Source: Voacanga thouarsii (lineage: Eukaryota > Streptophyta > Magnoliopsida > Gentianales > Apocynaceae). Taken from it: a stretch of 64,000 bases of DNA. Below are positions 32,883 through 61,700 of the stretch, piece after piece. Made by a program: the position numbers and the translations under genes. Numbering within the stretch: the first letter of the stretch is position 1; each line of letters starts with the position of its first letter. The notes under the pieces were generated by a model, which saw only the letters and a program-made list of their open reading frames with translations, was not told the DNA's origin and made no database searches. The stretch covers positions 310,001 to 374,000 of the forward strand of contig JANUWF010001190.1 in NCBI GenBank assembly GCA_026120185.1, given 5' to 3'.

Positions 32883-35800
32883 TTAAGCAGGTGATGGCTG
32901 TGAAGTGGGATCGGCCGAGGAGGGAATTTCGGGGCCGACCCGACAACCCTCCAGCATGAATACAATGTCTGCCATGGTGGGGCGGTCTAGGGGATCTGGT
33001 GCCGTGCAAAGTAAACCCACCTTTATTCCTAGCAAGAACTCTTCCCATTCTGAGGATTCAGGGTCTAGTTCAAGGAGTCCTGGTTCCAACAATTCTGAAA
33101 TTTGACCTATTTGCAATTGCCTCTTCACCCATTTCACTATATCCTCATCTTGAGTGAACATGACCGGCCTTTTTCCGGTTAGTAGCTCCAATAGCACAAT
33201 GCCAAAGCTGTAAACATCTGATTCTCTTGTAGCTTCCCCTGTTAATACTGCTTCTGGTGATACATAGCCTAAAGTTCCCACTGAAGTTGAAGTTGAAGGT
33301 TCAGCTGAAGCGGTAACCGTAAGCTTGTCTAGACCAAAATCCGAAAGATGGGCTTCAAAATCTGCATCAAATAGAACGTTTTGGGGTTTGATATCTCCAT
33401 GAACAATTGAGGACGAGTGGAGGAAGCCCAGACCCCGGGCAATGCCAAGTGCAATCAGGTGGCGCATAGGCCAATTTAGGACATGGCCGTCTTGGTGTGA
33501 CGCTTCTTGGAGCAATGTAGCAAGATTTCCATTGGGCATGTAATCATAAACAAGAAGTCTGAGGTCAGGAGGGCCAGCATAGTATCCTCGAAGAACTGTT
33601 AGGTTCCGGTGCTTTATTTTGCCAAGTGATTCTGCTTCTTTTCTGAACATATTTTCATCCAAAGATCCATTAGGAAGTTTGCGAATTGAGAGCACCATTC
33701 CATCATTGTAGCATGCTTTAAACACTACCCCAAATCGTGTTCTGCTTAGCACATTTTCCTCATCAAAATGCCTTGTCGCTTCTATAGTTTCAGCTAAGGT
33801 GATCTTGTTGTTAAACATGACAAGTTTGGGACCTCCATTGTCACCACTACTTCGACCTCCACTTGTTCTTGTACTCGCTCTTGCTGGACTGTGCTTCTTT
33901 TCTGCTGTTGCTCCTTGTTTGAGCTTCTGGCGCCACCTTAAGAGGCTGTAAACATAGAAGCAACAGCAAGAAAGCGTTAACAAAGTCCCACTTGCAGCCA
34001 CGGCAATAAACAATATTAACCTGTTCCTCCTATCACCCCGATCAGACGCTTCACAATTTCTGTCCAGTGGCTTCCCACAAAGGCCTTCATTACCCATGAA
34101 AGATGAGCTGTTGAACCGAGAACCTATTGTTGGCGGGATTTCACCTTCCAGGTTATTATTTGAAACATCAAAGCTTGTCAAGCTTGATATCATTGTAAGA
34201 CTTGCTGGAATATCTCCAGTCAAATTGTTCGAAGACAGATTAAGGGTTGTTAAATTAGATAGCTTAGACAAGGAGTTTGGAATATGACCTGAAAGATGAT
34301 TTCTATCTAATAGAATCGATGATAAGGATGAGCAATTGGAAATCTCTCCTGAGACTTCACCTCTTAAATTGTTTCCACTCAAATCAAGCACATTCAAATG
34401 TGGCAAACGAGAGACATCAACTGGGATTTGGCCACTCAAAGAGTTTGAATGCAAATCCAAAATTTCAAGAGCAGAGCAGCTTCCCAGCTCGGGAGGAATA
34501 GAGCCAGAAATGTGATTATTAGACAACGACAGAACAACTAAGGACTTCAAGAACCCAAATGTGGATGGAATATTACCGGAAAATAAATTTGAAGAAATAT
34601 TCAAATACCGCAATCCCATTAAGCTACTGAAGCCATCAGGAACATACCCAGACAATTTATTCTCCTGCAGTGCGATCACTTGTAAATTAGGCAGACCCGC
34701 AAGATCAACTGGCAATTCTCCAGATAAACTTTGTTTACTCAAATCAATAGATGTCAGCTTATACAGACTTCCTATACTTGCTGGGACTGCACCAGAAAAC
34801 CCATTACCACTCAAATTTAGAACTGATAGCTGCCTCAAGTTCCCGATAGTTTTGGGCAAACTCCCAGAGAACTTGTTGCCGCCTAAACTTAGTGAACTCA
34901 AATTGCTCAATAAGAGTACTTCTTCGGGCAAGCTTCCATTCAGCACATTGTCTCTCAAGTCCAGATATTCAAGCTGAGTAAGGTTACCAAAACTTGAAGG
35001 AATCGATCCTGAAAAATGATTTCCACCAAGGAACAGAGCCTTCAAACCTTTCAGGTCACTTAAGAATGCAGGAACTTCCCCAGTCAATTCATTCCCTTCA
35101 AGATCTAAAGCTTGCAAGTTCCTACATTTTGTGATCTCAATAGGAACTTCACCAGAAAACAAATTATTAGCCAACCTCAATTCCCCTAGTCTCCATACGT
35201 TTCCAATCTCAATAGGAATGGACCCTGAAAAACCATTCCCTGAAACATCCAGTGTCGTTAATGTCGTAACATTTAGTAAAACCTTCGGAAAATTACCATG
35301 AAGCCGATTCTGTTGGAGGTCCAAAACCTCCAAAGCACTGAAACAATTAGAAGGCTCTGCTACATCAATGCCAGTGAAAGCATTGAATCCCAGTTGGACA
35401 TTTCGAATAGAGGGTGGATAAATTGAAACGTTGCAGAATATTGAAACAGGTAACGAACCAGACAAGTTATTATGTGATATAGAAATGACAGCAAGCTTCG
35501 GAAGAGCACCGATCCCAGCTGGCAGAATACCGCTAATGGCATTACCCTCGGCGCTCAAATGTAAAAGAGATGAGCAGTTGCCGATAGCCGAGGGCAATGT
35601 GCCTTGCAAGTTGTTGTAGTCTAGCCACAGGTACTCTAACTGCTGAAGCTCGCCCAGACCCGCTGGAATCTCCCCAGAAAATTGATTATAGGACAAGTTG
35701 ATGAGCTGAAGCTGTGAAACATTTGAGAGGCTACTGGGAATTTCACCAGAGAATGAGTTTGAGGAAACGTCCAAGTACCGGAGACTTTTTGGGAGTTCGC

Positions 35801-36317
35801 CGGAGATTTGACCCGAAAGTTGGTTTCCGGCGAGGTTGACAATTTGCAGGTTGGTGAGGTTGGAAATCTCCGGAGGCAGGTTGCCGGAAAATGAGTTGTA
35901 TTGTAGGAAAAGAGAGTGCAACATAGCACATTTGAAGAGGGATGAAGGAATAGTGCCATTAAAAAAGTTGGACCGAATGCTTAACTTGCGCAGCCTGCGC
36001 AGGTTAGAAATTTGAGGGCTGAGTGGGCCGCTGAGTTGCAGACGAGGGAAGCGGAGCTCACTGACTTGGCCATTGTAACAAAAGACGCCACGCCAGTCGC
36101 ACGGAGCAGACGGAGTCGAGGGGTCCCAGCTGTCAAGTGCTCCAAGAGGGTCGTGGAGGCTGGCTTTGAACGCAAGAAGTGCTTGGATCTCAGCTTGGTG
36201 CTCGGCAGCGGCAGCGGCAGCCGCAGCGGCGGCAGTACAGAAAAGAACAGCAGCGGAGACAAATACTCCTGCAAGGAGGAGAACGAAGGTAAGTGGTGGA
36301 AATAGGGATGGCGGCAT
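32883..36317 (-). CDS. LRR receptor-like kinase, MUSTACHES-LIKE type
   Basis: A single-exon frame of 1144 residues, membrane receptor kinase. In order: signal peptide (about 1-40) containing a run of ten alanines; LRRNT domain with ALLAFKASLHDP and CDWRGVFC; about 20 or more plant LRRs to about residue 725 with the GxIPxxLxxLxxLxxLxLxxN pattern; a C-pair GLCGKPLDRNC; one membrane segment near 763-785 (LILFIAVAASGTLLTL); then a kinase domain from about 850. The invariant Lys is in VLSIRKL. The catalytic loop is VHGDIKPQN, so it is non-RD, followed by DFG in HLSDFGLDKL. The glycine loop is degenerate (SRTRFGVVFK). The C-terminus GPEIPSSADPTSQPSPA is very like Arabidopsis At4g36180 (MUL) and its sister MUS, involved in guard cell wall symmetry. 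The frame is complete. Confidence 0.95.
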   Translation of the reverse strand: MPPSLFPPLTFVLLLAGVFVSAAVLFCTAAAAAAAAAAEHQAEIQALLAFKASLHDPLGALDSWDPSTPSAPCDWRGVFCYNGQVSELRFPRLQLSGPLSPQISNLRRLRKLSIRSNFFNGTIPSSLFKCAMLHSLFLQYNSFSGNLPPEISNLTNLQIVNLAGNQLSGQISGELPKSLRYLDVSSNSFSGEIPSSLSNVSQLQLINLSYNQFSGEIPAGLGELQQLEYLWLDYNNLQGTLPSAIGNCSSLLHLSAEGNAISGILPAGIGALPKLAVISISHNNLSGSLPVSIFCNVSIYPPSIRNVQLGFNAFTGIDVAEPSNCFSALEVLDLQQNRLHGNFPKVLLNVTTLTTLDVSGNGFSGSIPIEIGNVWRLGELRLANNLFSGEVPIEITKCRNLQALDLEGNELTGEVPAFLSDLKGLKALFLGGNHFSGSIPSSFGNLTQLEYLDLRDNVLNGSLPEEVLLLSNLSSLSLGGNKFSGSLPKTIGNLRQLSVLNLSGNGFSGAVPASIGSLYKLTSIDLSKQSLSGELPVDLAGLPNLQVIALQENKLSGYVPDGFSSLMGLRYLNISSNLFSGNIPSTFGFLKSLVVLSLSNNHISGSIPPELGSCSALEILDLHSNSLSGQIPVDVSRLPHLNVLDLSGNNLRGEVSGEISNCSSLSSILLDRNHLSGHIPNSLSKLSNLTTLNLSSNNLTGDIPASLTMISSLTSFDVSNNNLEGEIPPTIGSRFNSSSFMGNEGLCGKPLDRNCEASDRGDRRNRLILFIAVAASGTLLTLSCCCFYVYSLLRWRQKLKQGATAEKKHSPARASTRTSGGRSSGDNGGPKLVMFNNKITLAETIEATRHFDEENVLSRTRFGVVFKACYNDGMVLSIRKLPNGSLDENMFRKEAESLGKIKHRNLTVLRGYYAGPPDLRLLVYDYMPNGNLATLLQEASHQDGHVLNWPMRHLIALGIARGLGFLHSSSIVHGDIKPQNVLFDADFEAHLSDFGLDKLTVTASAEPSTSTSVGTLGYVSPEAVLTGEATRESDVYSFGIVLLELLTGKRPVMFTQDEDIVKWVKRQLQIGQISELLEPGLLELDPESSEWEEFLLGIKVGLLCTAPDPLDRPTMADIVFMLEGCRVGPEIPSSADPTSQPSPA
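36205..36238 (-). repeat. GCN-type trinucleotide run coding polyalanine
   Basis: GCT/GCC/GCG codons for ten alanines at about residues 29-38 of the receptor kinase, at the end of the predicted signal peptide. The codons are mixed, which makes slippage less likely than in a pure repeat. Confidence 0.85.
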
Positions 36318-38702: not shown

Positions 38703-38706
<4 letters not shown>

Positions 38707-39078
38707 ATGAATATATTAATGGCAGCTCTATTAATTATGAATTTATGTGAATTATTAAGGAATTAGTAGAAACTCCACTAATTATGAATTTTTATGAATG
38801 TCCACCATTTAATAGAGACACCACTAATTAAGATTAGTGGAGATGATATATTCCACTAATTAAGAACTCTATAAATAGAGCTATTTTCTAAACTTGAAAT
38901 ACATTATCATTTTGTAAAAGAATTATGAGAAAAAAGAAAGAGAGAAGTTTTGAAGAAATTCTTGTGTAAAAAATAGTTAGAGTTTTCTTAGTGTGTAGTG
39001 TGAAAATTTTATTCTAACACTATCTTCTTAGTGTGTAGTATGTAGATTTTATTTTAACATTACCTAAATTTTATAACA
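38703..39078 (+). repeat. 5' LTR (376 bp)
   Basis: Starts TGTTATGAATATATT and ends TTTTATAACA. Contains CTCTATAAATAGAGC (TATA-like core between inverted repeats) near 38868 and a direct repeat of TTCTTAGTGTGTAGT in its last 100 bases. Confidence 0.88.
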
Positions 39079-39140
39079 CGTTATCAGCACGAATATCTGT
39101 CGTTATCAAAGTTAAAAGACAAGTACTCATTTATTGATCC

Positions 39141-39721
39141 ATATGACTAACCTTACTAAACTCGAATTTGCAGCTATTGATATTTCTGGAAAAAATTATA
39201 TGTCATGGGTTCTCGATACAGAAATGCATCTAAATGCTGAAAAAAAAAAGATTTGACCACCTGAAGATGGTCGTACTACCAAGTGCACGGTATAAATGAT
39301 TGCACCTAAAGTTGTAAGATTTTAAAATCGTGAATAAATATAGCTCCGCGATGTATAAAATTGCATCTCAGTTAAAATTATGCGGAGAAAAAATATATTG
39401 GAGAAGACGTTCTCCAATTTTCATACCTCGAATATTATCCTGCAGCAACAATATCAAGAAAAATGGTATATACAGATTTACTTACTACCCTCCTCATTAT
39501 AAAGAAAAATAATGAGTTATTATTGAGAAATCATGAAGCCAGACCAATTAGCTCAACAGCATTATCAGAAGTGAATGTTGTTGGTTCCAGCAGAAGCCAT
39601 CGTTATAGTCGTAGTTGTGGCAGTGGCCGTAGTTATGGTCATGGACACACTCGATATTTTTCTTAGTATAGAGCAATACTAGCCACCTGAAGTGGAATAG
39701 AAAATATAATAAGGGAAAATG
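39141..39721 (+). pseudogene. Copia gag remnant
   Basis: Starts MTNLTKLEFAAIDISGKNYM, the UBN2-type gag N-terminus also seen at 54524-55045. A deletion removes about 45 codons after LNAE, joining into an A-run and a stop. Later pieces, from KIASQLKLCGEK to NHEARPISSTALSEVN, lie in other frames. Similarity ends near AAGGGAAAA at 39721, before the zinc knuckle. Confidence 0.8.
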
Positions 39722-39922
39722 ATATTTTCATTAATAATAAGTATCACATCTTTAAGATGTTACATTCGGATGTCAATATATACTATATTAGTGATAACAG
39801 TTAAAAAAAAAATATCCATCTCCTCTTGATTATAAGTCTTGTGTTTACTTGCATTTCCTTCATTCATCTCACTGGTGTTTACGTGAACTTAAGGATGCAT
39901 ACTTGTAGTTGCTCTTTTTCAA

Positions 39923-41272
39923 TTAAGCTGACAAATTGAGGATGAATGTTTGTAGTTGTTCTTTTTCCATGTTTGCATTAGAGGAAGACAAACAGGTAAT
40001 AATTATGGATTTCAGTTCCTCTTCTTCGGCATCCTCCTCCTCTTCCTTCTCCCTTGGGCGAGCATTTAGACTAGCAGCAGAATTAGCCGTGAAGTTACTG
40101 CGCAATGAGTTTTGAGATTTTCTCATCCCCTTAAGTTTCTTATTATATTTGGCCTTGAAACATGCTTATCTCAATTTATGTGTTTAGTCCTTCAACCGCA
40201 TATCAGGACTTTCTTCCACCAACTTCTTCTCACGTTCCAGTATCTCAATGGTTTCTCTTAACTTCTTCTCAACCATATGTCCTCTTTCGTCTTTATCTCG
40301 CTCCTATAAATCGAAGTGATATCATCGGTGGAGATACATTCATTCCAGTCATTATTTACTTATAAATCTTTCATAGTTTCATACTTGCAAATTACAAGTG
40401 TATGTATGAGAGAACCTGGACATTCTTGATTAAGGTCTCCAAGCTCATCAATTTCCTGTGAGGCCATTGACGAATTCCCAACTCTCTACATCTGTTCTTG
40501 AGAGGGGTTAAGCTAATAATCAATTCTTTGACCGCGCTCTTGATTGGCAGGTAAAAATACTACGATGGTTTCTTTTGATAGTGTCTTGGAGCTATTGCCA
40601 TTCTCCTCTCTCTGCTTCCTAATCCTCTTCTTCTCCATAGGAATTTCGTTTGCAATAATATCTTGAATTTTGATATTATGCATTTCATGGGTCCTCACTC
40701 CAAATTTGTTGCTAAGATCACTCATTATTTCTCCTATAAAAGAAAAAATAATATCAGTAAAGGTAATACCATGCAAAATCCTGATAACCTGGAACCATAT
40801 TCTGGCTTTATTCAAAATCTATTAGGGAGTAGAAATGATCATGCACAAGCATATCCTCATTCAGATGAACAGCATCAAAAGTAGTCTCTTGAATGGGTAG
40901 ATCAAATTGAAAATCCAAAGCAGCATATTCATAACTACCACTGATTTACATCACAACAAACCAAACGAGAGTTTAATTTCATTATTTCATTATTAAGCAC
41001 ACTAAAAAAATGGGGAAGCCTTCAAAAGTATCTCATATGAAATTAGGCGGAAACGGTTGGCTTGGAAAGGAAAATATATCAAACTCTTCTGCGTTAAACC
41101 TGACATTAGGCGGAAGCGGTTGGCTTAGAAAGGAAAATATATCAAAATCTTCTGCGTTAGACCTGAAATTAGGCGGAAGCGGTTGGTTTGGAAAAGAAAA
41201 CACATCAAAATTTTCTGCGTTAGAAACCAAGTCAAAATTTGACCATGTCTCAAATGAATTACGAGTCTCCAT
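39923..41272 (-). pseudogene. RKD-type RWP-RK transcription factor pseudogene inside the copia element
   Basis: Exon-like blocks on the minus strand: about 41272-41034, 40940-40789, 40733-40416 and 40303-39923. Exon 3 carries TLSKETI, then YFYLPIKSAVKEL, then PLKNRCRELGIRQWPHRK and LMSLETLIKNVQ, the RWP-RK core of RKD proteins. Exon 4 has KKLRETIEILEREKKLVEES then ACFKAKYNKK and an acidic tail, as in RKDs. Splice sites remain (CCAG|GTTATC, TTTTATAG|GAGA, GTCCAG|GTTCTC, TTATAG|GAGC). Damage: a stop in exon 2 (DFE*SQNM), a 2 base deletion and a stop just before YFY, two stops in exon 4 (RLKD*THKLR*ACF). The first base of the RWPxRK motif codon is changed (QWPHRK). RKDs control egg cell and embryo programmes. 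The exon 1 to exon 2 junction could not be resolved. Confidence 0.85.
41042..41221 (-). repeat. Three tandem 60 bp repeats in RKD exon 1
   Basis: Three copies of about 60 bp with period-preserving differences. On the minus strand each codes for FD(I/V)FSFPxQPLPPNF followed by xNAEx, so the frame was kept while the repeat grew. The plus-strand frame across it has the same period but no known family. Confidence 0.9.
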
Positions 41273-41334
41273 ATATGCTTTGAGATTTTTTTTTTTTTAT
41301 ATTTACTAATGGCTGATGACTGAGATATATATCG

Positions 41335-41338
<4 letters not shown>

Positions 41339-41407
<69 letters not shown>
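41339..41407. repeat. (CA)n(TA)n compound microsatellite
   Basis: About 13 CA units followed by about 20 TA units, upstream of the RKD pseudogene start and still within the foreign segment of the copia element. Confidence 0.95.
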
Positions 41408-41408
<1 letters not shown>

Positions 41409-41599
41409 GAGGAAAAAGAACAGGTAGATGATAGGTGGAGGGACGGAGGAGAAGAAAAGACAAGGAGGAAGGGGAAAAGATGGTACCGGGAAGAGTGAAA
41501 AAGATAGATTTTTATAATAAATTTATTGGCATTTTCTACTTGTCATCATGTTCTTACATTTCTTTTTTTTTTCCCCCCTTATTCTCTTGTGAAATCATT

Positions 41600-43570
41600 G
41601 TTCACTAAATTAGGGAGAGAACAGAAACAGTATAGAAAAATCTTGATTGGATAATATCATTAAATTATCTTGATCCGCGTACAAGCACGTGTGAACTTGA
41701 AGTTCAAAAGATAATTCATTTGTAAAGTATTACAAATCAAATGCCAAACGCTTTTGTTGACTCCAGAAAAGTAACAAAATCGCATATTCCAACTGTAAAT
41801 ACTCCTATTCGAATTGAAGTTCCAACAAAACAAAAGATTATATCTATAACTGCTGAGCCAAAAGCATGCCAGAAGCATGGCCGACCTCTTGGTTCTAAAG
41901 ATAAAAACCCTCAAAAAGAGAGATGATGAAATGATGCAGATGATCACATTAGAAAAAGAATGATAAAGATCAAGAGAGAATTGATGAAAAAGAACCAGAA
42001 GTTGATGAAAGTAATACTGAAATTTCTATTAATTATACCACTTCCGGTAGAAGTTGAAATCGGATAGAAACAATAATTGATAATATGTTTGCATATAATA
42101 TATCTCTTGATGTTATACAAGATAATGATAATTCTAAACCAATATTAGTTGATGAATGTCAGCATAGAAAAGATTAGCTACAATGGAAAGATGCGATTCA
42201 ATCGGGGTTAAATGCACTGATACAACGTGAAGTCTTTGGACCTGTAGTCCGAACACCAGAAGGTGTAAAACCCGTTGGCTACAAATGGATATTTGTGCTA
42301 AAGTGCAATAAAAATAATGAAATCGTACGATATAAAGCACGGTTAGTAGCCCAATATTTTTTACAAAGATCAGGTATGGATTATGATGAAACTTATTCTC
42401 CTGTTGTTGATACTATTACACTCCGATATCTTGTCAGTTTGGCAGTACATGAAAAGATAGATATGCGCCTATTAGATGTTGTCACTACTTACTTGTATGG
42501 AAATTTAGAAAATTATGTTTACATGAAAATTCCTGAAGGATTTCGCATGCTTGAAGCATATGAACATTATCCTCGTGAAAATTACTCCATCAAATTGCAA
42601 AAATCATTATATGCCCTGAAGCAATCTGGGCGCATGTGGTTCAATCGTCTTAGTGAATATTTATTGAAAGCGGAATTTAAAAATAATCAGGTATGTCCAT
42701 GTGTTTTTATTAAGAAATTTGGTTCTAAATTTGTGATATATGTTGATGATATTAATCTTATTGGAACTCCTGAAGAGTTCCAAGAAACAATTGATTATTC
42801 GACATCAAGGATATTGGAAAAATTACATTTTGTCTTGGTGTACAAATTAAACATTTGGCAAGTTTCATCAATCAACATATACAGCAAAAGTTCTAGAAAG
42901 ATTTTACATGGACAAAACACATCTATTGAGTATTTCAATGATCGTCCGGTCATTAGATGTGAATAAAGATTCATTCCGACCTCAAGAAGATGATGAAGAA
43001 TTCCTTGGTCCTGAAGTACCATATCTCAGTGCAATTGGTGTATTGATGTATCTTACTAACAATACACGACCTGATATTGTCTTTACTGTCAATTTATTAG
43101 TAAGATTTAGTTATTCACTAACACGACGACATTGGAATGGAATTACACAACTTCTTCGATATCTCCAAGCAACTACTTATTTAAATCATGCTGAAAGTAT
43201 AGTCATTCATGAAGCAAGTAGAGAATGTGTATGGTTACGATCCATAATTCATGATATCCGAGAAAGTTGTGGATTATCATCTATCAGAGATATTCCAACT
43301 CCTCTTTATGAAGACAATGCAGCTTGCATAACTCAAATACGAGGAGGATATATTAAAGGAGATCGGACAAAACATATTTCACCAAAATTATTCTTTACTA
43401 ATGAATTCCAGAAGAAAGGTGAAATTGATGTGTTACAAATTTGGTCATGTGACAACCTCGCAGATATTTTCACAAAGACTTTACCGACTGCAATATTTGA
43501 GAAGTTGAGATATAAAATTGGTATGCGTCGATTTAAAGATTTAAAAGAATCATCTCATCAGGGGGAGTAA
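41600..43570 (+). pseudogene. Copia reverse transcriptase and RNase H remnant
   Basis: 41600-42290 is the integrase to RT linker in broken frames (HGRPLGSKDKN). 42295-42966 keeps RT motifs ARLVAQYF, LLDVVTTYLYGNLEN and the catalytic FVIYVDDINLIG. After that the frame shifts. 42908-43570 keeps ANNTRPDIVFTVN-like text (as LTNNTRPDIVF) and the RNase H C-terminus LYEDNAACITQ and NLADIFTKTLP. About 60 residues of RNase H, including the first catalytic Asp (YADAGY in the sister copy), are deleted between LRYLQATT and NHAE. Non-functional. Confidence 0.88.
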
Positions 43571-43694
43571 TAAACAGACATATAGAATAGTGTACTCTTT
43601 TTTCTTTACTAGATTTTTTTTTCACTGGATTTTTATCTAATAAGGTTTTAACGAGGCATATTCTTTATGTAATGGATGAACATCTAAGGGGAAG

Positions 43695-44074
43695 TGTTAT
43701 AAATATATTAGTGGAAGTTACACTAATTGTGGATTTATGTGAACTATTAGGGAATTAGTGGAAGCTCCACTAATTATTGATTTTTATGGATGTCCACTAT
43801 TTAATGGAGACACTATTAATTAAGATTAGTGGAGATGATGTATTCCACTAATTAAGAGCTCTATAAATAGAGCTATTTTAAAAGTTTGAAATACACCATC
43901 ATTTTATAAAATAATTATGAAAAAAATTGTGAGAGAAAAGAAAGAGAGAAGTTTTGAAGAAATTATTGTGTAAAGAAAAGTTAGAGTTTTCTTAGTGTGT
44001 AGTGTGTAAATTTTATTATAATACTACATTTTTAGTGTGTAGTGTGTAGATTTTATTATAACACTACTCAAATT

Positions 44075-44082
<8 letters not shown>
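43695..44082 (+). repeat. 3' LTR (388 bp)
   Basis: Preceded by the polypurine tract. Ends TTTTATAATA, where the expected terminal CA has become TA. The (AT)n microsatellite resumes directly after it. Confidence 0.85.
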
Positions 44083-49906: not shown

Positions 49907-50260
49907 TGTTTTAAAATTAGGGTAGTGTTAGAATAAAATCTTCACACTACACACTAATAAAACTCTAACTATTTTGCACAAGAATTTCTCTCTTTCTCTT
50001 CTCTCACAATTTTCTCTAATATTTCTTTCACTAATCTTTCTTTCACAAAATGATGGTGTATTACAAATTTAGAGAATAGCTCTATTTATAGAGCTCTAAT
50101 TAGTGGAATACATCATGGCATACATCATCTTCCACTAATCTCAATTAGTGGTGTCTCCACTAAATGGTGGACATCCATAAAAATCTTCTATAATAATTCA
50201 CATAAATCCATAATTAGTGGAGCCTCCACTAATTAATAAAGATTTCAATAATTCATAACA
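49907..50260 (-). repeat. 3' LTR (354 bp)
   Basis: Bounded by AGTAC outside and the polypurine tract inside. Contains AGCTCTATTTATAGAGCT, an inverted repeat around the TATA-like core, near 50081-50098. Confidence 0.95.
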
Positions 50261-50385
50261 CTCCCCCTTGGATGTCCATCCATTACATAAAGAATATGCC
50301 TCGTTAAAACCTTACTAGATAAAAACCCAGTGGGAAAAAAAATCTAGTGAAGGAAAAAGAGTACACTATTCTATATGTCTGTTTA

Positions 50386-51861
50386 TTACTCCCCCTGATG
50401 AGATGATTCATTTAAATCTTTAAACTGACGCATACCGATTTTATATCTCAACTTCTCAAATGTTGCAGTCGGTAAAGTCTTCGTGAAAATATCTGCGAGG
50501 TTATCACATGACCGAATTTGTAGCACATCAATTTCACATTTCTTCTGGAGTTCATGAGTAAAGAAGAATTTTGGTGAAATATGTTTTGTCCGATCTCCTT
50601 TAATATATCCTCCTCGTAATTGAGTTATGCAAGCTGCATTGTCTTTATAAAGAGAAGTTGGAATATCTTTGATTGATGATAATCCACAACTTTCTCGGAT
50701 ATAATGAATCATGGATCTTAGCCATACACATTCTCGACTTACTTCATGAATAGCTATAATTTCAGCATGATTTGAAGAAGCAGCTGCTATAGATTGTTTC
50801 GTAGAACACCATGATATAGCAGTATTTCCACATGTAAATAGATAGCCCGTTTGAGAATGTGCTTTATGTGGATCAGATAAATAACCAGCATCTGCATAAC
50901 CTATCAATGTTGGACTGATTTTATTTGAATAAAATAATTCGAGATCAATTGTACCTTGGAGATATCGAAGGACTTGTTTAATTCCATTCCAATGTCGTCG
51001 TGTTGGTGAAGAACTAAATCTTGCTAATAAATTGACAGCAAAAGCAATACCAAGTCGTGTATTATTAGCAAGATACATCAATGCACCAATTGCACTGAGA
51101 TATGGTACTTCAGGACCAAGGAGTTCTTCATCATTTTCTTGAGGTCGGAAAGGATCTTTATCCACATTTAATGATCGAACGATCATTGGAATACTCAATG
51201 GATGTACTTTGTCCATGTAAAATCTTTTTAGCACTTTTGCTGTATATGTTGATTGATGAATAAATGTTCCACTATACAGATATTCAATTTGTAAACCAAG
51301 GCAAAATTTGATTTTATCAAAATCATTGATTTCGAATTCTCTTTTTAAATAATCAATTGTTTCTTGGAGCTCTTCAGGAGTTCTAATAAGATTAATATCA
51401 TCAACATATATAGCTAATATCACAAATTTAGAACCAGATTTCTTAATAAAAACACATGGACATACCTGGTCATTTTTAAATCCCGATTTCAATAAATATT
51501 CACTAAGACGTGTGAACCACATGCGCCCAGATTGCTTCAGGCCATATAATGATTTCTGTAACTTGATGGAGTAATTTTCACGAGGATAATGTTTATATGC
51601 TTCAGGCATATGAAATTCTTCGGGGATTTTCATGTAAACATCATTTTCTAAATTTCCATACAAGTAAGTAGTGACAACATCTAATAGGCGCATATCTATC
51701 TTTTCATGTACTGCCAAACTGATAAGATATCGGAGTGTAATAGCATCAACAATAGGAGAATAAGTTTCATCATAATCAATACCTGGTCTTTGTGAAAAAC
51801 CTTGGGCTACTAATCGCGCTTTATATCGAACGATTTCACTCTTTTCATTGCGCTTTCGCAC
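50386..51861 (-). pseudogene. Copia reverse transcriptase and RNase H segment
   Basis: Open for 491 codons. RT motifs include YKARLVAQGFSQRPGIDYDE, LLDVVTTYLYGNLENDVYMK, LYGLKQSGRMWF and the catalytic box LAIYVDDINLI. RNase H follows with YADAGY, SSNHAEIIA, LYKDNAACITQ and the end motif NLADIFTKTLP. RT and RNase H catalytic residues are all present. The start Met is not a natural start, since the domain continues upstream in a broken frame. Confidence 0.93.
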
Positions 51862-52807
51862 AAATATCCATTTGTAGCCAACGGGTTTTACACCTTACGG
51901 TGTTCGGACTGCAGGTCCGAAGACTTCACGTTTTGTCGGTGCATTTAACTCCGATTCAATCGCATCTTTCCATTGCAGACCAATCTTTTCTATGCCGACA
52001 TTCATCAAGCTGATATTGGTTCAGCATCATCATTATCCTGTGTAACATCAAGAGATATATTGTATGCAAATATATTATCAATAACGGTTTCTATCCGATT
52101 CCAACTTCTACCGGAAGTGGTATAATTGATAGAAATTTCAGTGTTACTTTCATCAACTTACGGTTCTTTGTCATCAGTTCTCTCTTGGTCTTTATCATTC
52201 TTTTCTTCAATATGATCTTCTGGATCATTTAATCCTCTTTTCTTTCGAGGATTTTTATCTTTAGAACCAAGAGGTCGGCCACGCTTCGGCGTGTTTTTGA
52301 CTCAGCAGACTATAGGTATAATATTTTGTTCTGCTTGGAACTTCAATTCGAATAGGAGTATTTATAGTTGGAATATGCGATTTTGTAACTCTTCCGGAGT
52401 CAACAAAAGCGTCGGCATTTGATTTGCAATGCTTTGCAAATGAATTATCTTTTGAACTTCAAGTTCACATGCGCTTGTGCGCGGATCAAGATAATTTAAT
52501 GATGTTGTCCAAGCAAGATCCTTTTTATGCTTGTTTTGGTTCTCCCCTAATTTAGGGAATAATGATTCATCAAAATGACAATCAAGCAAATCTTGTCTGT
52601 GAATACATCTCCTGTCGGGGGTTCAACAGATCCCGATAATAGAGGGAGAATCATATCCAACGTATATCCCCTTTCTTCTTTGAAGACCCATCTTTGTACG
52701 TTGGTTTGGTGCAATTAGAATATATACTAAGACACCTAAAAATTCTTAAATGAGCAATATTTGGTTCCGACCCAAAAGCCAATTGCAAAGGAGAGAATTT
52801 ATGATAA
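51862..52807 (-). pseudogene. Copia integrase C-terminus to RT linker, broken
   Basis: Joins the integrase and RT segments but is spread over three frames. Recognisable pieces are PASYHKFSPLQLAFGSEPN with HLRIFRC (52651-52854) and LDPRTSACELEVQKIIHLQS (52362-52589), plus GRPLGSKD-like text near 52260-52280. Several stops and shifts. Confidence 0.8.
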
Positions 52808-53908
52808 CTAGCTGGTCTTATACGTACAAGTGTTGCAAGCATGTAGAATAGCATGTCCCCAGACAGATGTTGGGAGATTTGTTTTCATTAATAATGGTCT
52901 AGCAATTAATTGTAATCGTTTAATCAAAGATTCAGCAAGACCATTTTGTATGTGAACATGAGTTACAGGATGTTCAACATTAATCCCAATTGACATGCAA
53001 TATGCATCAAAAGCATGTGATGAAAATTCACCAGCATTATCCAAACAGATATTTTTAATGTGATGGTCAGGAAACTGTGCTTGTAATTTAATTATTTGAG
53101 CAAGTAATCTCGCAAACGCCAGGTTGCGAGTAGATAATAAACATACATGTGACAATCGGGATGATGCATCAATTAAGACCATAAAATATTTGAACGGTCC
53201 ACATGGTGGATCAATAGGTCCACAAATATTTCCGTGAATCCGTTCGAGAAATGTAGGACTTTCAGCTCCTACTTTTAATGGTGATGGTTTAACAATTAAT
53301 TTTCCTAGGGAACATGCAGTACATGCGAATTTTTCTGATGTTAATATCCTTTTATTTTTTAAAGGATGACCATGTGTATTCTCAATGATTCTTCTCATCA
53401 TGGTAGATCCTGAATGACCCAACCGGTCATGCCAAATGCTAAAAGTAATAGGATCAGTAAACTTCTGGTTTACTAGATGATGAATTTCAATTGTACGTAT
53501 TTTTACAAAATATAGGCTAGTAGAAAAAGACGGCAGTTTTTCTAATATAGATTTCTTACCCAAATGCATTTGAGTAATAAAAAGATGCTCAATCCCATTT
53601 TCCTCATTTGTTTCAACATGATACCCATTTCTGCGGATATCTTTAAAACTCAATAAATTTCTTTTGGATTTTGAGAAAAATCGTACCTTATCAATAATAA
53701 TTGTTGTTTCTTTAGGCAACAATATACTAGCTCTTTCGGAGCCCTCAATTACATTTGCACTACCGTTTATCGTATAAATATTTATTTCTCCCATTTTGAG
53801 ATCAAAAAAATATTTCTCATTTTTTAGTATGGTGTGTGTAGTTCCACTATCAATAATGCATACATCATCATTAACAACAGCCTTCTGAACACAAATATAT
53901 ATATGCAA
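52808..53908 (-). pseudogene. Copia protease and integrase segment
   Basis: 366 codons. The protease site CIIDSGTTHTI is intact. The gag pre-integrase HHCC region is WHDRLGHSG to CTACSLGK. The integrase DDE triad is present as VLIDASSRLS, ICLDNAGEFSS and NGLAESLIKRL. The frame is lost just after NTCTYKTS. Confidence 0.92.
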
Positions 53909-53966
53909 ACGTAAATATTATTAGAATAGAATGAAAATGAAAATACAAAAATATCAGGGTGAGGCT

Positions 53967-54482
53967 TTAGTTCTTCTGGACACTGCCATCACCAATTAAA
54001 TGGTCTATCCTACCGTCTGGTGTGTTCAAAAAATCCGATACATCCATATGGGTAATATTGATATTAAGATCTTCAGGATCAATATCATCATCCTCAGCAT
54101 TATTTATTGGATGTTGAGAAAAATTTGCTTCCACATTTTTATTTTTCAATGAAACTTGATACAATTCAACTAAATGTTTAGCCGTACGACAGTTTCGTGA
54201 CCAATGACCTTTCATGCCACATCTATAATATATATCCTCATGCTTTTCTTCAATTTCTTTTTCTTTTCCCTTATGATCTTTTCTGTTCCACTTCAGATGG
54301 CCAGTATTTCTCACAGTTTGATTATGATTGTGATAAGGAAAATATCGAGCGTGTCTACGACCATAACCACGATCACGGCCATGGCCACGACCACGATTAT
54401 AACGATGGCTTCTGCTAGAGCCAATAGCATTCACTTCTGGGAGTGCTGTTGAGCCAGTTGGTCTGGCTTCATGATTTCTCAA
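53967..54482 (-). pseudogene. Copia gag C-terminal segment with damaged zinc knuckle
   Basis: An Arg/Gly/His-rich stretch (SRSHRYNRGRGHGRDRGYG) comes before a CCHC knuckle reading YYRCGMKGHWSRNC. The usual first Cys (CxxC) is Tyr here, so zinc binding should be impaired. The segment is in a different frame from the N-terminal gag part. Confidence 0.88.
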
Positions 54483-54523
54483 TAATAACTCATTATTCTT
54501 CTCTGCAATGAGGAGAGCAGTAA

Positions 54524-55045
54524 TTAAACTGTAAATTTTGTATACCCCTTTTCTCGATATTGTTGCTGCAGGACAATATTTGAGGCATGAAAGGTGGAGA
54601 ATATCTTCTCCAACATATCTTCATCAGTCACTTTTTCTCCGCATAATTTTAATCGAGATGTAATTTTATACATTGCGGAGCTATATTCATTCACGATTTT
54701 AAAATCTTGCAACCTCAGGTGCAACAATTCATACCGTGCAGTGGGTAGTACGACCATCTTTAGGTGGTCAAATCTTTTTTTTAAATTTACCCACAGGACA
54801 TATGGATCTTTTTCGGTAAGATATTCCATTTTCAAATTTTCATCGAGATGACGACGAATAAAAATCAAAGCTTTAGCCTTATGCTGTGCAGATGCACTAT
54901 TATTTGCTTGAATAGTTTCACCAAGGCCTTCAGCATTTAGATGCATTTCTACATCGAGAACCCATGACATATAATTTTTTCCAGAAATATCAAGGGCTAC
55001 AAATTCGAGTTTAGCGAGATTAGCCATAGAGATCAATAAATGCAT
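54524..55045 (-). pseudogene. Copia gag N-terminal segment (UBN2 type)
   Basis: 173 codons with LEFVALDISGKNYMSWVLDV, then YLTEKDPYVLW, and LRLQDFKIVNEYSSAMYKI, typical of the copia gag polyprotein. The natural start is probably the MANLAKLEF methionine, six codons into the open frame. A shift separates it from the C-terminal part. Confidence 0.9.
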
Positions 55046-55128
55046 ACCTGTCTTCTGATTTTGTTAACGGCAGAAACTCGTGCTTAGTCTTCTGGCTTTT
55101 GTGCCGGTAGAGACTCGTGCTGACAACG

Positions 55129-55481
55129 TGTTATAAAATTAGGGTAGTGTTAGAATAAAATCTTCACACTACACACTAATAAAACTCTAACTATTTTGCA
55201 CAAGAATTTCTTTCTTTCTCTTCTCTCACAATTTTCTCTAATATTTCTTTCACTAATATTTCTTTCACAAAATGATGGTGTATTACAAGCTTAAAGAATA
55301 GCTCTATTTATAGAGCTCTAATTAGTGGAATACATCATGGCATACATCATTTCCACTAATCTCAATTAGTGGTGTTTCCACTAAATGGTGGACATCCAGA
55401 AAAATCTTCTATAATAATTCACATAAATCCATAATTAGTGGAGCCTCCACTAATTAATAAAGATTCCAGTAATTCATAACA
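55129..55481 (-). repeat. 5' LTR (353 bp)
   Basis: Flanked by AGTAC at 55482-55486. The TATA-like core near 55305-55322 lies between AGCTCTA and TAGAGCT as in the other LTRs. Confidence 0.95.
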
Positions 55482-59323: not shown

Positions 59324-61700
59324 ATGAGTAGCTACGGAGATAGCATATATGTTGACGATGGCTCAGATGAGGAGGTTCAGTGTACCCGAAGATGGCACGG
59401 AAGAGGTTCAAGTATTGTATGAGACAAGGAATGAATTTGAAAATCAAGTTGATGGTCGTGATGCTATTATCTAAGAATTGGAAAAAAAAAAAAAAACTAA
59501 TGAATACTATTGTGGATTCACAAGAGGTAGCATATAAATTGTATTGTGAATATGCCCATGCTTGTGGATTTAGTGTAAGGAAGGGAAAGCAATACTATGT
59601 ACACGGGACAAATAATCTTAGATCTAAAGTATTTTTTTTGTTTAAAGCAAGGAATTAAAAAAATATGAAAATGAGAGTGAGTCTTCTCTTGAAAGGTTGG
59701 AGACTAGAACTGCTTGCAAGGCAATGGTCCAGTTTGAGGTTAATTGCAATGGAAAATGGAAAGTAAATAAAATACAAAAGGACCACAATCATGAGATGGC
59801 CAAGACTTATGAACTACATTTGCTAAGATCAGCTCAATGTGTAACAGATGCCCAGGGAGACACATTGGAGTCCTTAGTAAGCTCCGGAATCAAGACTTCT
59901 CAAACATTCTCTTACTTGTCAAAAGAGAGTGGGGGTATTGGAAATATTGATTTTTTGAAGAAGGATGCATACAATGAACTCAATAATAGAAGAAATTCAG
60001 TAATTGAAAAATGAGATGCTCAAAGTCTTGTAAATCACTTCAACCAAAAAGCTAATCAAGAGAAAATGTTTTTTTGGGATGTGGAATTGGATGACGAAGG
60101 AAGAATTCATAACTTTTTTTTGGAGAGATGGTAGATCTCAAATTGATTTTGATTACTTTGGTGATGTTGTTGTTTTTTATACTACCTGTAGGACTAATAA
60201 GTACAACTTAATTTGAGAGCCTTTCATTGGAGTAAATCATCATTGGCAAACTATAATGTTTGCATGTGCATTTTTATCTGATGAGACTTCCGCTTCATTT
60301 GAGTGAGCATTTAGATCGTTTTTAGAGTCGATAGATAACAAGCAACCTGTGACCTTTATGACTAATCAAGACAATGCAATTATGAAAGGTGCAAAGATAG
60401 TGTTTCCGGACATCCAGCATAGGTTGTGTTTGTGGCATATTTGCAAAAATGCTCCTTCATATTTGCGTGGCTCAATATTGAAACTGGTTTCCAAAATTTG
60501 TTCCACAAATGTTTGATGGGATGTGAGACAAAAGAAGAGTTCGAGCAAACATGGGCCAAGATGATTTCAGACTATAATTTACTTGGCCACAAGTGGTTGG
60601 AGAGATTGTATAATATTCGGGATAGGTGGTGCACTGGTTTTTCCAAGGAAACATTTAGTGTGGGGTTCATAATAACATCAAGAAGTGAGAGCACTAATTG
60701 TGTATTAAATGGCATTGGGAGTAGAACATGTTCACTGACGAAATTTGTTCTTGAATTTGAGTGAAAACTTGGATAGTGGCGCTAAAATAAAGCTGAGGCT
60801 GATTTTACTTGTGTACAAGGGAAACCTCTACTTTTAATACGATCTAGTGCAATGTTACAACAGGCTGCCCAATTTTATATTCACAAACTATACAAATTGT
60901 TTGAGAAGGAATTTATGGGTATATGTGTTTCATCTAGTGAAGAAGTTGTTATGGTTGAAGAATCAGTGTATAGCTTAAAAGTGACTGTGGAGACCAAATG
61001 GGGCCACCAAACAAGTAAAGTTGTTCTCAACACAAAAGATGGATCTGTACAATGTAGTTGCAAGAAATTTGAAAGTATGGGAATACTTTGTACACACTCA
61101 TTGGCAGCTTTGAAGGTAAAGAATATTGCCAAAATCTCGGATTCATATTTCCTGAAAAGGTGGGGCAAAAATGCTAGAAAGCGTATTAGTGATGTAGAAC
61201 AAAATAGGATATTTAGCATGCAAGGTACTGATTCGGACATTATTTTCACAAATCAAACCATGAAGTTTACTTATAATGTTGTTAATAAATGTGGATCTCA
61301 TGAGACAAGTAGGCTTATTTTGTGGCAAGCACTAGAAAGTGCTAATCAAAAGCTTGATGAATATTAGAAAACGCATACATTGAAGGATTCACAATCTGGA
61401 ATTAGGGATAATAGAGCACTGAACAATAAAAGTTTAGCTTGTGAAGATGGAAATGAATGTGACATTGTTGTTCAAGATCCCAATCGAATAAGAGCGAAGG
61501 GTAAAGAAATGGGTGAAAGACTATAGGGCCATTTTGAGAAGCGTCAAAGGAAATCTACCTAAGGTTTTACTGCCATTTTTAATGAAATTGTTTAATTCAA
61601 CAAAGGCTTTGCTGTTTTTTAAATTAACTGTCTTTCTTGTTGAATGCAGGAAAAAGAAGGAAATCACAAGCTGCTACAGTAAGGGGAAATAGAAGCTAAG
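59324..61700 (+). pseudogene. FAR1-related sequence (FRS), MULE-derived, broken
   Basis: FRS proteins are transcription factors domesticated from Mutator-like transposases. Domains in order: acidic start; FAR1 zinc domain at about 59520-59800 (YKLYCEYAHACGFSVRKGKQ, TACKAMVQFEVN, KDHNHEM); MULE domain at about 60120-60470 (FDYFGDVVVFYTTCRTNKYN, GVNHHWQTIMFACAFL, HRLCLWHICKNA); and SWIM zinc finger VQCSCKKFESMGILCTHSLA near 61050. Damage: frame shifts near 59385, in the A15 run at 59479-59493, near 59640, at the T-run near 60115 and near 60470; stops at 59472, 60012, 60213, 60303 and 60762. The usual Asp of VVFDTTY is Tyr. After the SWIM domain, a possible last intron runs from about 61562 to 61648. 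A MULE transposon is the alternative, but no terminal repeats were seen. Confidence 0.85.

Follow-up and report, generated by a model that had tools for sequence, protein, structure and literature searches.

Long terminal repeat (LTR) retrotransposons are known to transduce host genes, the described cases including Bs1 of maize, Rider/SUN of tomato and TRIM of Arabidopsis (reviewed in PMC13317346). The Ty1-copia element reported here lies in a 64,000-nucleotide stretch of the Voacanga thouarsii genome (the window; C585:310001-374000, contig JANUWF010001190.1 of assembly GCA_026120185.1) and, like the cases covered in that review, carries a host gene segment that is re-inserted with it. The segment comes from a gene of the RKD subfamily of RWP-RK factors, a subfamily with reported roles in the egg cell and in nucellar embryony (PMC6090715). 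Unlike Bs1, Rider/SUN and TRIM as the review presents them, the RKD segment is antisense to its element and bears an intron; it takes the place of protease and integrase and is found at about 2,500 places. It departs likewise, in orientation and in copy number, from the usual transduction outlined in PMC7264820, according to which genes taken up by plant LTR elements mostly stand in sense and occur in one or a few copies. Grande, RIRE2, Retand and PvRetro13 also have a coding segment in antisense that recurs through many members of a family (PMC7264820); the present antisense open reading frame (ORF) differs from theirs in sitting between gag and the reverse transcriptase (RT) and in being plainly RKD. 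The source of most antisense additional ORFs in plant LTR elements is called unknown in that paper, and the element may offer a model for their origin.

In pearl millet, RWP-RK genes have likewise multiplied and overlap intact LTR elements (PMC10011142). That case concerns a grass and is described as an expanded gene family, apparently without mention of element anatomy, antisense capture or a link to hAT transposons. The comparison suggests that annotated expansions of the RWP-RK family may be transposon cargo. Pack-TYPE DNA transposons, including Pack-hAT, similarly hold captured genes inside hAT ends but are described as non-autonomous (PMC8903248), whereas the RKD-carrying hAT copies of V. 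thouarsii keep transposase domains beside RKD. In the open-access literature, no listed paper appeared to describe a eudicot copia or hAT element with an RKD gene in it, most subscription papers and preprints lying outside that search. Within one genome, a gene of a reproductive-regulator family has become a high-copy and partly recent repeat, carried by a retrotransposon and also by a DNA transposon.

The reading that we regard as very probable is that RKD was captured once by a copia element, that this element reached about 2,500 copies by mobilisation in trans through RKD-free siblings, and that RKD travels mainly as a passenger. In one event, an intron-containing genomic RKD gene would have entered a Ty1-copia element in antisense, taking the place of the zinc knuckle, protease and integrase. 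The element has amplified along two lineages or more, the window copy belonging to an older one and the main copies to a younger, and roughly 2,500 copies are now detectable. Each insertion carries RKD as a gene copy in one direction and, on the strand that the LTR would drive, sequence antisense to RKD.

The recurrence of the two junctions carries most of the argument. The captured segment, used as a query against the 1.346-Gb assembly, gave 3,845 first-look candidates, the best 40 of which were scored (91 match rows); the sample of subfamily 1, the window type, consists of the window and of 20 loci out of the 39 others that were scored. The order gag, insert, pol, with the identical two junctions, was found in all 20 sampled copies as well as in the window, that is, the same junctions recur in independent insertions, as is characteristic of a transduced host gene. 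Nine further element loci, found through a search for the RWP-RK domain, extended to the 5′ junction in eight cases and to the 3′ junction in seven, and the junction was the same wherever it was reached; the order gag, RKD, pol is also seen in four loci of the main subfamily picked by their 5′ junction pattern. A 35-bp pattern across the gag/RKD junction (up to three mismatches) matched 1,255 + 1,287 = 2,542 places in the genome, and a 41-bp pattern for uninterrupted gag-protease sequence (same tolerance) matched 1,091 + 1,156 = 2,247, two counts that are only roughly comparable because the patterns differ in length. Control patterns, for the gag/RKD junction its reversed form, gave 0 matches each. 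Since the junction recurs genome-wide and the controls are empty, the recurrence is not due to chance, and RKD, a gene of the egg-cell regulator type, is now an abundant repeat with some 2,500 detectable places. A genome search with PF02042 yielded 3,618 candidates, of which the best 150 were scored; all were above the cut-off and free of stops inside the domain, and at least two of them lie outside the copia element. For Zanthoxylum armatum, 36 RWP-RK genes are reported (PMC11202622). Two RKD-bearing copia elements, L012 and L026, stand head to head about 10 bases apart at C474:250807-263094.

Target site duplications (TSDs) show that the whole unit moves. Both LTR ends were callable in 12 of the 21 subfamily-1 copies (not in the remaining 9), and an identical 5-bp TSD, as is typical of Ty1-copia, was present in 10 of these 12 and differed in two; in one of the two, L016, the LTR start was probably miscalled, although the copy is still counted as a mismatch. 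The window element is among the ten, but its apparent TSD is uninformative because an AT microsatellite lies on both flanks. As read from the flanks, two of three main-subfamily copies also have matching TSDs. The Kimura two-parameter distance (K2P) between the LTRs of a copy was 0.036-0.136 in the 12 subfamily-1 copies and 0.006, 0.025 and 0.031 in the three main-subfamily copies. The lower of the two substitution rates applied to these distances is 7e-9 per site per year. Between this rate and 1.3e-8 per site per year, the rate used in PMC10011142, the insertions would date to about 0.2 to 10 million years ago. The TSDs and the spread of LTR divergences from 0.006 to 0.136 thus establish repeated retrotransposition of the RKD-bearing unit, with some insertions recent.

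The window element occupies 38703-44082 (+), with LTRs of 376 and 388 bases. Its parts, and those of an RKD-free relative in the same window, are as follows.

38703-39078 (+): 5′ LTR, TGTTATG...TATAACA; K2P of the LTR pair 0.136.
About 39085 (+): primer-binding-type sequence, directly after the 5′ LTR.
39080-39719 (+): gag remnant (recognised at about 39143-39719), zinc knuckle gone.
39720-41577 (−): captured RKD segment, antisense to the element; 3′ limit between 41564 and about 41592.
39926-40303 (−): last RKD exon (ERDKDERGHM...FILNLSA), with stops in the window copy.
40304-40415 (−): retained intron, with GT in 19 of 21 copies and AG in 14 of 21.
40416-40740 (−): RKD exon with the RWP-RK domain; 5′ exon end not fixed, 2-bp deletion in the window copy.
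40811-40945 (−): second RKD exon-like block (FDLPIQET...DFE).
41036-41296 (−): first-exon block of RKD (METRNSFETWSNF...), with three 63-bp (21-aa) tandem units.
41593-43694 (+): remaining pol, comprising the end of the integrase region, RT (RVT_2) and RNase H with a 166-bp deletion.
43695-44082 (+): 3′ LTR, ending in ATAATA in the window copy.
49909-55454 (−): RKD-free relative of the same copia family, its LTRs 74-75% identical to those of the window element.

The LTRs are of the paired TG...CA form usual for Ty1-copia, apart from the ATAATA end of the window's own 3′ LTR. RT/RNase H lies at about 41780-43567 (+) and matches RVT_2 in Pfam (E 4e-41); the copia order of integrase before RT is read from the RKD-free relative, in which gag, zinc knuckle, Pol_BBD, GAG-pre-integrase, rve and RVT_2 were recognised, the zinc knuckle (18.2 bits) and rve (24.1 bits) both under the Pfam cut-offs. 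Aligned to this relative, the RKD insert of about 1.85 kb takes the place of 1,696 bp (54263..52568); the zinc knuckle, Pol_BBD, GAG-pre-integrase and rve, and with them the protease/integrase region, all lie there. Hence RKD stands where an autonomous Ty1-copia element has an intact protease and integrase. The insert starts at 39720; donor similarity ends at 41564, copia-like sequence is back by about 41578-41597, and inspection of both junctions revealed no decisive microhomology.

Within the insert, RWP-RK (PF02042) was detected in 40395-40559 (E 1e-16). The frame of a sister copy, L009, used in place of the window copy to name relatives, gave 97 matches, 22 of them organism-named: 10 RKD1/RKD2, one Nin-like and 11 hypothetical, unnamed or RWP-RK. 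To judge from these relatives, the captured gene belongs to RKD and not to NLP among the RWP-RK factors. The intron after LIKNVQ is retained, and about 0.3 kb of upstream and 0.2 kb of downstream gene flank were captured as well; the retained intron implies that the template was not a spliced mRNA, but genomic DNA or an unspliced antisense transcript. The 63-bp units, at 41038-41226 in the window, vary in number among copies, with at least five motif repeats in L051. The window copy itself is dead as a protein. The initial annotation, made from the letters of the window, had described a copia gag remnant, RKD exon-like blocks with their motifs and RT/RNase H between LTRs of one family; this is confirmed, the RKD blocks lying on the minus strand. 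It had also placed RKD in the position of protease and integrase, in agreement with the 1,696 bp found replaced, and had called the copy dead on account of several stops and a 2-base deletion; indeed, the block 40762-40395 is 368 nt long, 2 nt short of the 370 nt seen in 19 of 21 copies, and several stops are present.

How an element of this anatomy multiplied is suggested by its relatives. No sampled RKD-bearing element has a protease/integrase piece of its own between gag and RT; the piece seen in L050 belongs to a nested element. This nested element, from about 3120 of L050 in element orientation, is an RKD-free relative with a protease/integrase region and is 94% identical to the relative in the window. 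Compared with the RKD-free relative, subfamily 1 has lost 166 bases of RNase H in all 19 assessable copies of the 21, and short gag and RT deletions are found in most; the deletions in the gag remnant of the window element are common to most sampled copies, a 146-base one being absent from L012 and L021. These shared gag-pol lesions imply that subfamily-1 copies moved while broken. In subfamily 2, which includes the main young copies, the 3′ flank of RKD is shorter. Of the four sampled main copies, two (L048 and L049) still have this part of RNase H, and the deletion was accordingly dropped as a mark of the whole family. Because the element is without protease and integrase and its siblings are abundant, about as numerous as itself within the comparability of the two patterns, copying with the proteins of RKD-free siblings appears the most likely route.

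Where the RKD segment came from is less clear. An intact host RKD gene outside transposons, which the initial annotation had named as support if a parent free of flanking LTRs were found, was not seen among the best-scoring of thousands of candidates, though one may exist. The same annotation had proposed capture by an LTR element as a route for the spread of RKD and had looked to other copia copies with the same junctions; both now stand on the 20 of 20 sampled loci, the 2,542 pattern matches and the TSDs of 10 of 12 callable copies. L029 and L030, considered as parents, are other RWP-RK loci whose nucleotides do not match the pieces of the element. L040/L041, at first a candidate for a plain host RKD gene, is repeated and has a hAT transposase, terminal inverted repeats (TIRs) and a TSD. 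L043b/L046 was rejected as well, being only an RKD fragment next to unrelated copia pol (pol by eye); at 1155-2358 of L046, this partial fragment lies beside the seemingly unrelated pol and near the RKD-carrying hAT on C861.

The closest non-copia relatives of the captured RKD among the best-scoring candidates lie in hAT elements, and whether such a transposon, rather than a host gene, donated the copia RKD is in our view an evenly balanced question. L040/L041 is the best non-copia relative among the loci sampled and matches the whole captured segment end to end, with gaps. In L041 and L043, hAT transposase domains were found in separate frames (PF05699 2e-26, PF14372 5e-18, zf-BED 1e-4), on the strand opposite to RKD. 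The TIR is TAGAGCTGTCAAAATGGG, and the flanking 8-mers, in keeping with the 8-bp TSD of hAT elements, match at 7 of 8 positions in the C861 copy and 5 of 8 in the C2 copy. In L041, L042 and L043 (on C2, C1087 and C861) RKD stands head to head with the transposase region, and RKD-free hAT copies exist. A query across the transposase/RKD boundary gave 1,141 candidates, of which the best 40 were scored, one being the query's own locus; of the 39 others, 23 have the RKD side, 13 end at query 1338-1376 (two with small later matches) and 3 are partial. Three of these 13, all RKD-free hAT copies, were examined and diverge from the RKD-hAT at one identical point; similarity to copia may continue for about 14 bases past this break, with agreement, judged by eye, at 10 of 12 bases and a gap of 2 bp, as expected if copia had taken RKD from within hAT. 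However, the shared stretch is brief and AT-rich, and these bases had been placed differently in the computed alignment. Moreover, copia-RKD and hAT-RKD form separate clades (support 0.99 and 1.0), albeit in a midpoint-rooted tree without a host outgroup, and with the host parent not found, copia and hAT may each have captured RKD separately. The hAT transposon with the same RKD gene is thus a possible donor.

A different view is that the RKD ORF is functional cargo, the RKD protein helping the element, for instance by activation in the egg cell or early embryo, with selection keeping the frame open. Some copies are still readable. Eight main-subfamily copies were picked by exact junction match alone, a choice that favours young copies (mean pairwise identity 95.4%), and scored for open frames in the first-exon piece, the RWP-RK exon and the last exon. 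Of the 8, 4 have an open 120-aa frame in the RWP-RK exon and 6 an open last exon (153-155 aa); 3 have both (L051, L055, L056), and in 2 of these (L051, L055) the first-exon piece is open as well. Four other loci, selected for an intact RWP-RK domain and a 120-aa frame, all show that frame, as the selection dictates. In subfamily 1, 9 of 21 copies were, by eye, without stop or frame shift in a 123-codon block around RWP-RK. By extrapolation, hundreds of readable RKD copies are likely.

Strong purifying selection on RKD was not found by codon counts within and between lineages. In the eight copies, the divergence of the exons (0.047 and 0.044) lies inside the range of the other parts (0.026-0.060); changes in the exons number 68 (nonsynonymous), 41 (synonymous) and 4 (stops), against 75.8, 31.0 and 8.6 expected from those other parts, among which is some sequence of gag and of the second exon. 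This slight synonymous excess would favour functional cargo. The RWP-RK exon of the 21 subfamily-1 copies has 115, 51 and 10 changes in the same order, with 140.6, 65.8 and 10.7 expected. Fixed differences between subfamily 1 and 12 main copies (246 codons) comprise 46 nonsynonymous, 23 synonymous and 0 stop changes, a synonymous share among the 69 that does not differ from neutral (p 0.22). The comparison with six subfamily-2 loci (25 nonsynonymous, 5 synonymous; p 0.15), and that of main copies with three hAT copies (71, 28 and 6 stops; p 1.0), likewise speak against retention by selection, as do gaps that are fixed in the last exon and span 2, 3 and 6 columns. After insertion, RKD looks to decay at a near-neutral rate, with at most weak maintenance of the frame in the multiplying lineages.

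Several observations nevertheless count against a single capture multiplied in trans with RKD mainly a passenger. The absence of stops among the 69 fixed changes, with 3.0-6.4 expected, has a probability of 0.002-0.005 under the decay spectrum and of 0.014-0.049 under simple spectra. There is no fixed indel in the RWP-RK exon, whereas non-triplet indels are many outside the exons, and fixed changes in the RWP-RK part are balanced at 5 nonsynonymous to 5 synonymous. Conservation of the frame therefore exceeds what a pure passenger would show, which may be taken as a weak hint of selection; the stop-free state of the best 150 of 3,618 RWP-RK matches points the same way, although other RWP-RK genes are included. 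In addition, with RNase H kept in L048 and L049 and a 395-aa RT frame in L048, some of the proteins may come from the main lineage itself, and mobilisation in trans, though most likely, is deduced from anatomy and the abundance of siblings. To these may be added the unequal pattern lengths behind the two junction counts and the missing host parent. Even so, we consider it improbable that RKD is functional cargo and, equally, doubtful that RKD, an egg-cell or embryo regulator, has been retained by the copia family in working order and, through protein or antisense RNA, gains it expression in the cells that pass to the next generation. If it did, a retrotransposon would have added hundreds of readable RKD copies to its host. 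The system offers a way of testing directly if a germline regulator can benefit the mobile element that carries it.

Slightly less probable again is a silencing of host RKD genes by antisense RKD RNA that the LTR promoter would produce. All sampled copies hold RKD in antisense to the element, and in citrus nucellar embryony was lost when CitRKD1 was overexpressed in antisense, as described for one transgenic line (PMC6090715). On the other hand, exact matches of at least 18 bases are absent between the 21 copies and the two host RWP-RK loci L029 and L030; with L041, 21-mers are common to all 21. Finally, two independent copia insertions around a resident RKD gene, or junctions created by assembly error, which the window copy alone, with its AT-microsatellite site, could not exclude and which the initial annotation had named as the main threats to its reading, are refuted for practical purposes by the repetition of the same junctions at 20 of 20 sites and at 2,542 places against 0 for the control, and by TSDs that bracket the whole unit.

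Other features of the window are of lesser bearing. A further LTR/gag fragment of the same copia family (about 71-75% identity) lies at the left edge, at 107-807 (−). About 2.4 kb from the element, an open frame of 1144 aa at 32883-36317 (−) encodes a leucine-rich repeat receptor kinase of the At4g36180/XIAO type, as assigned from its named matches, which by score are Solanum chilense (76%), Nyssa (64%), Withania (74%) and tobacco (72%), the top match having 81%. An ORF at 60852-61367 (+) with the motif CSC...GILCTHSLAAL resembles what we take to be a FAR1/SWIM-type transposase-derived protein.
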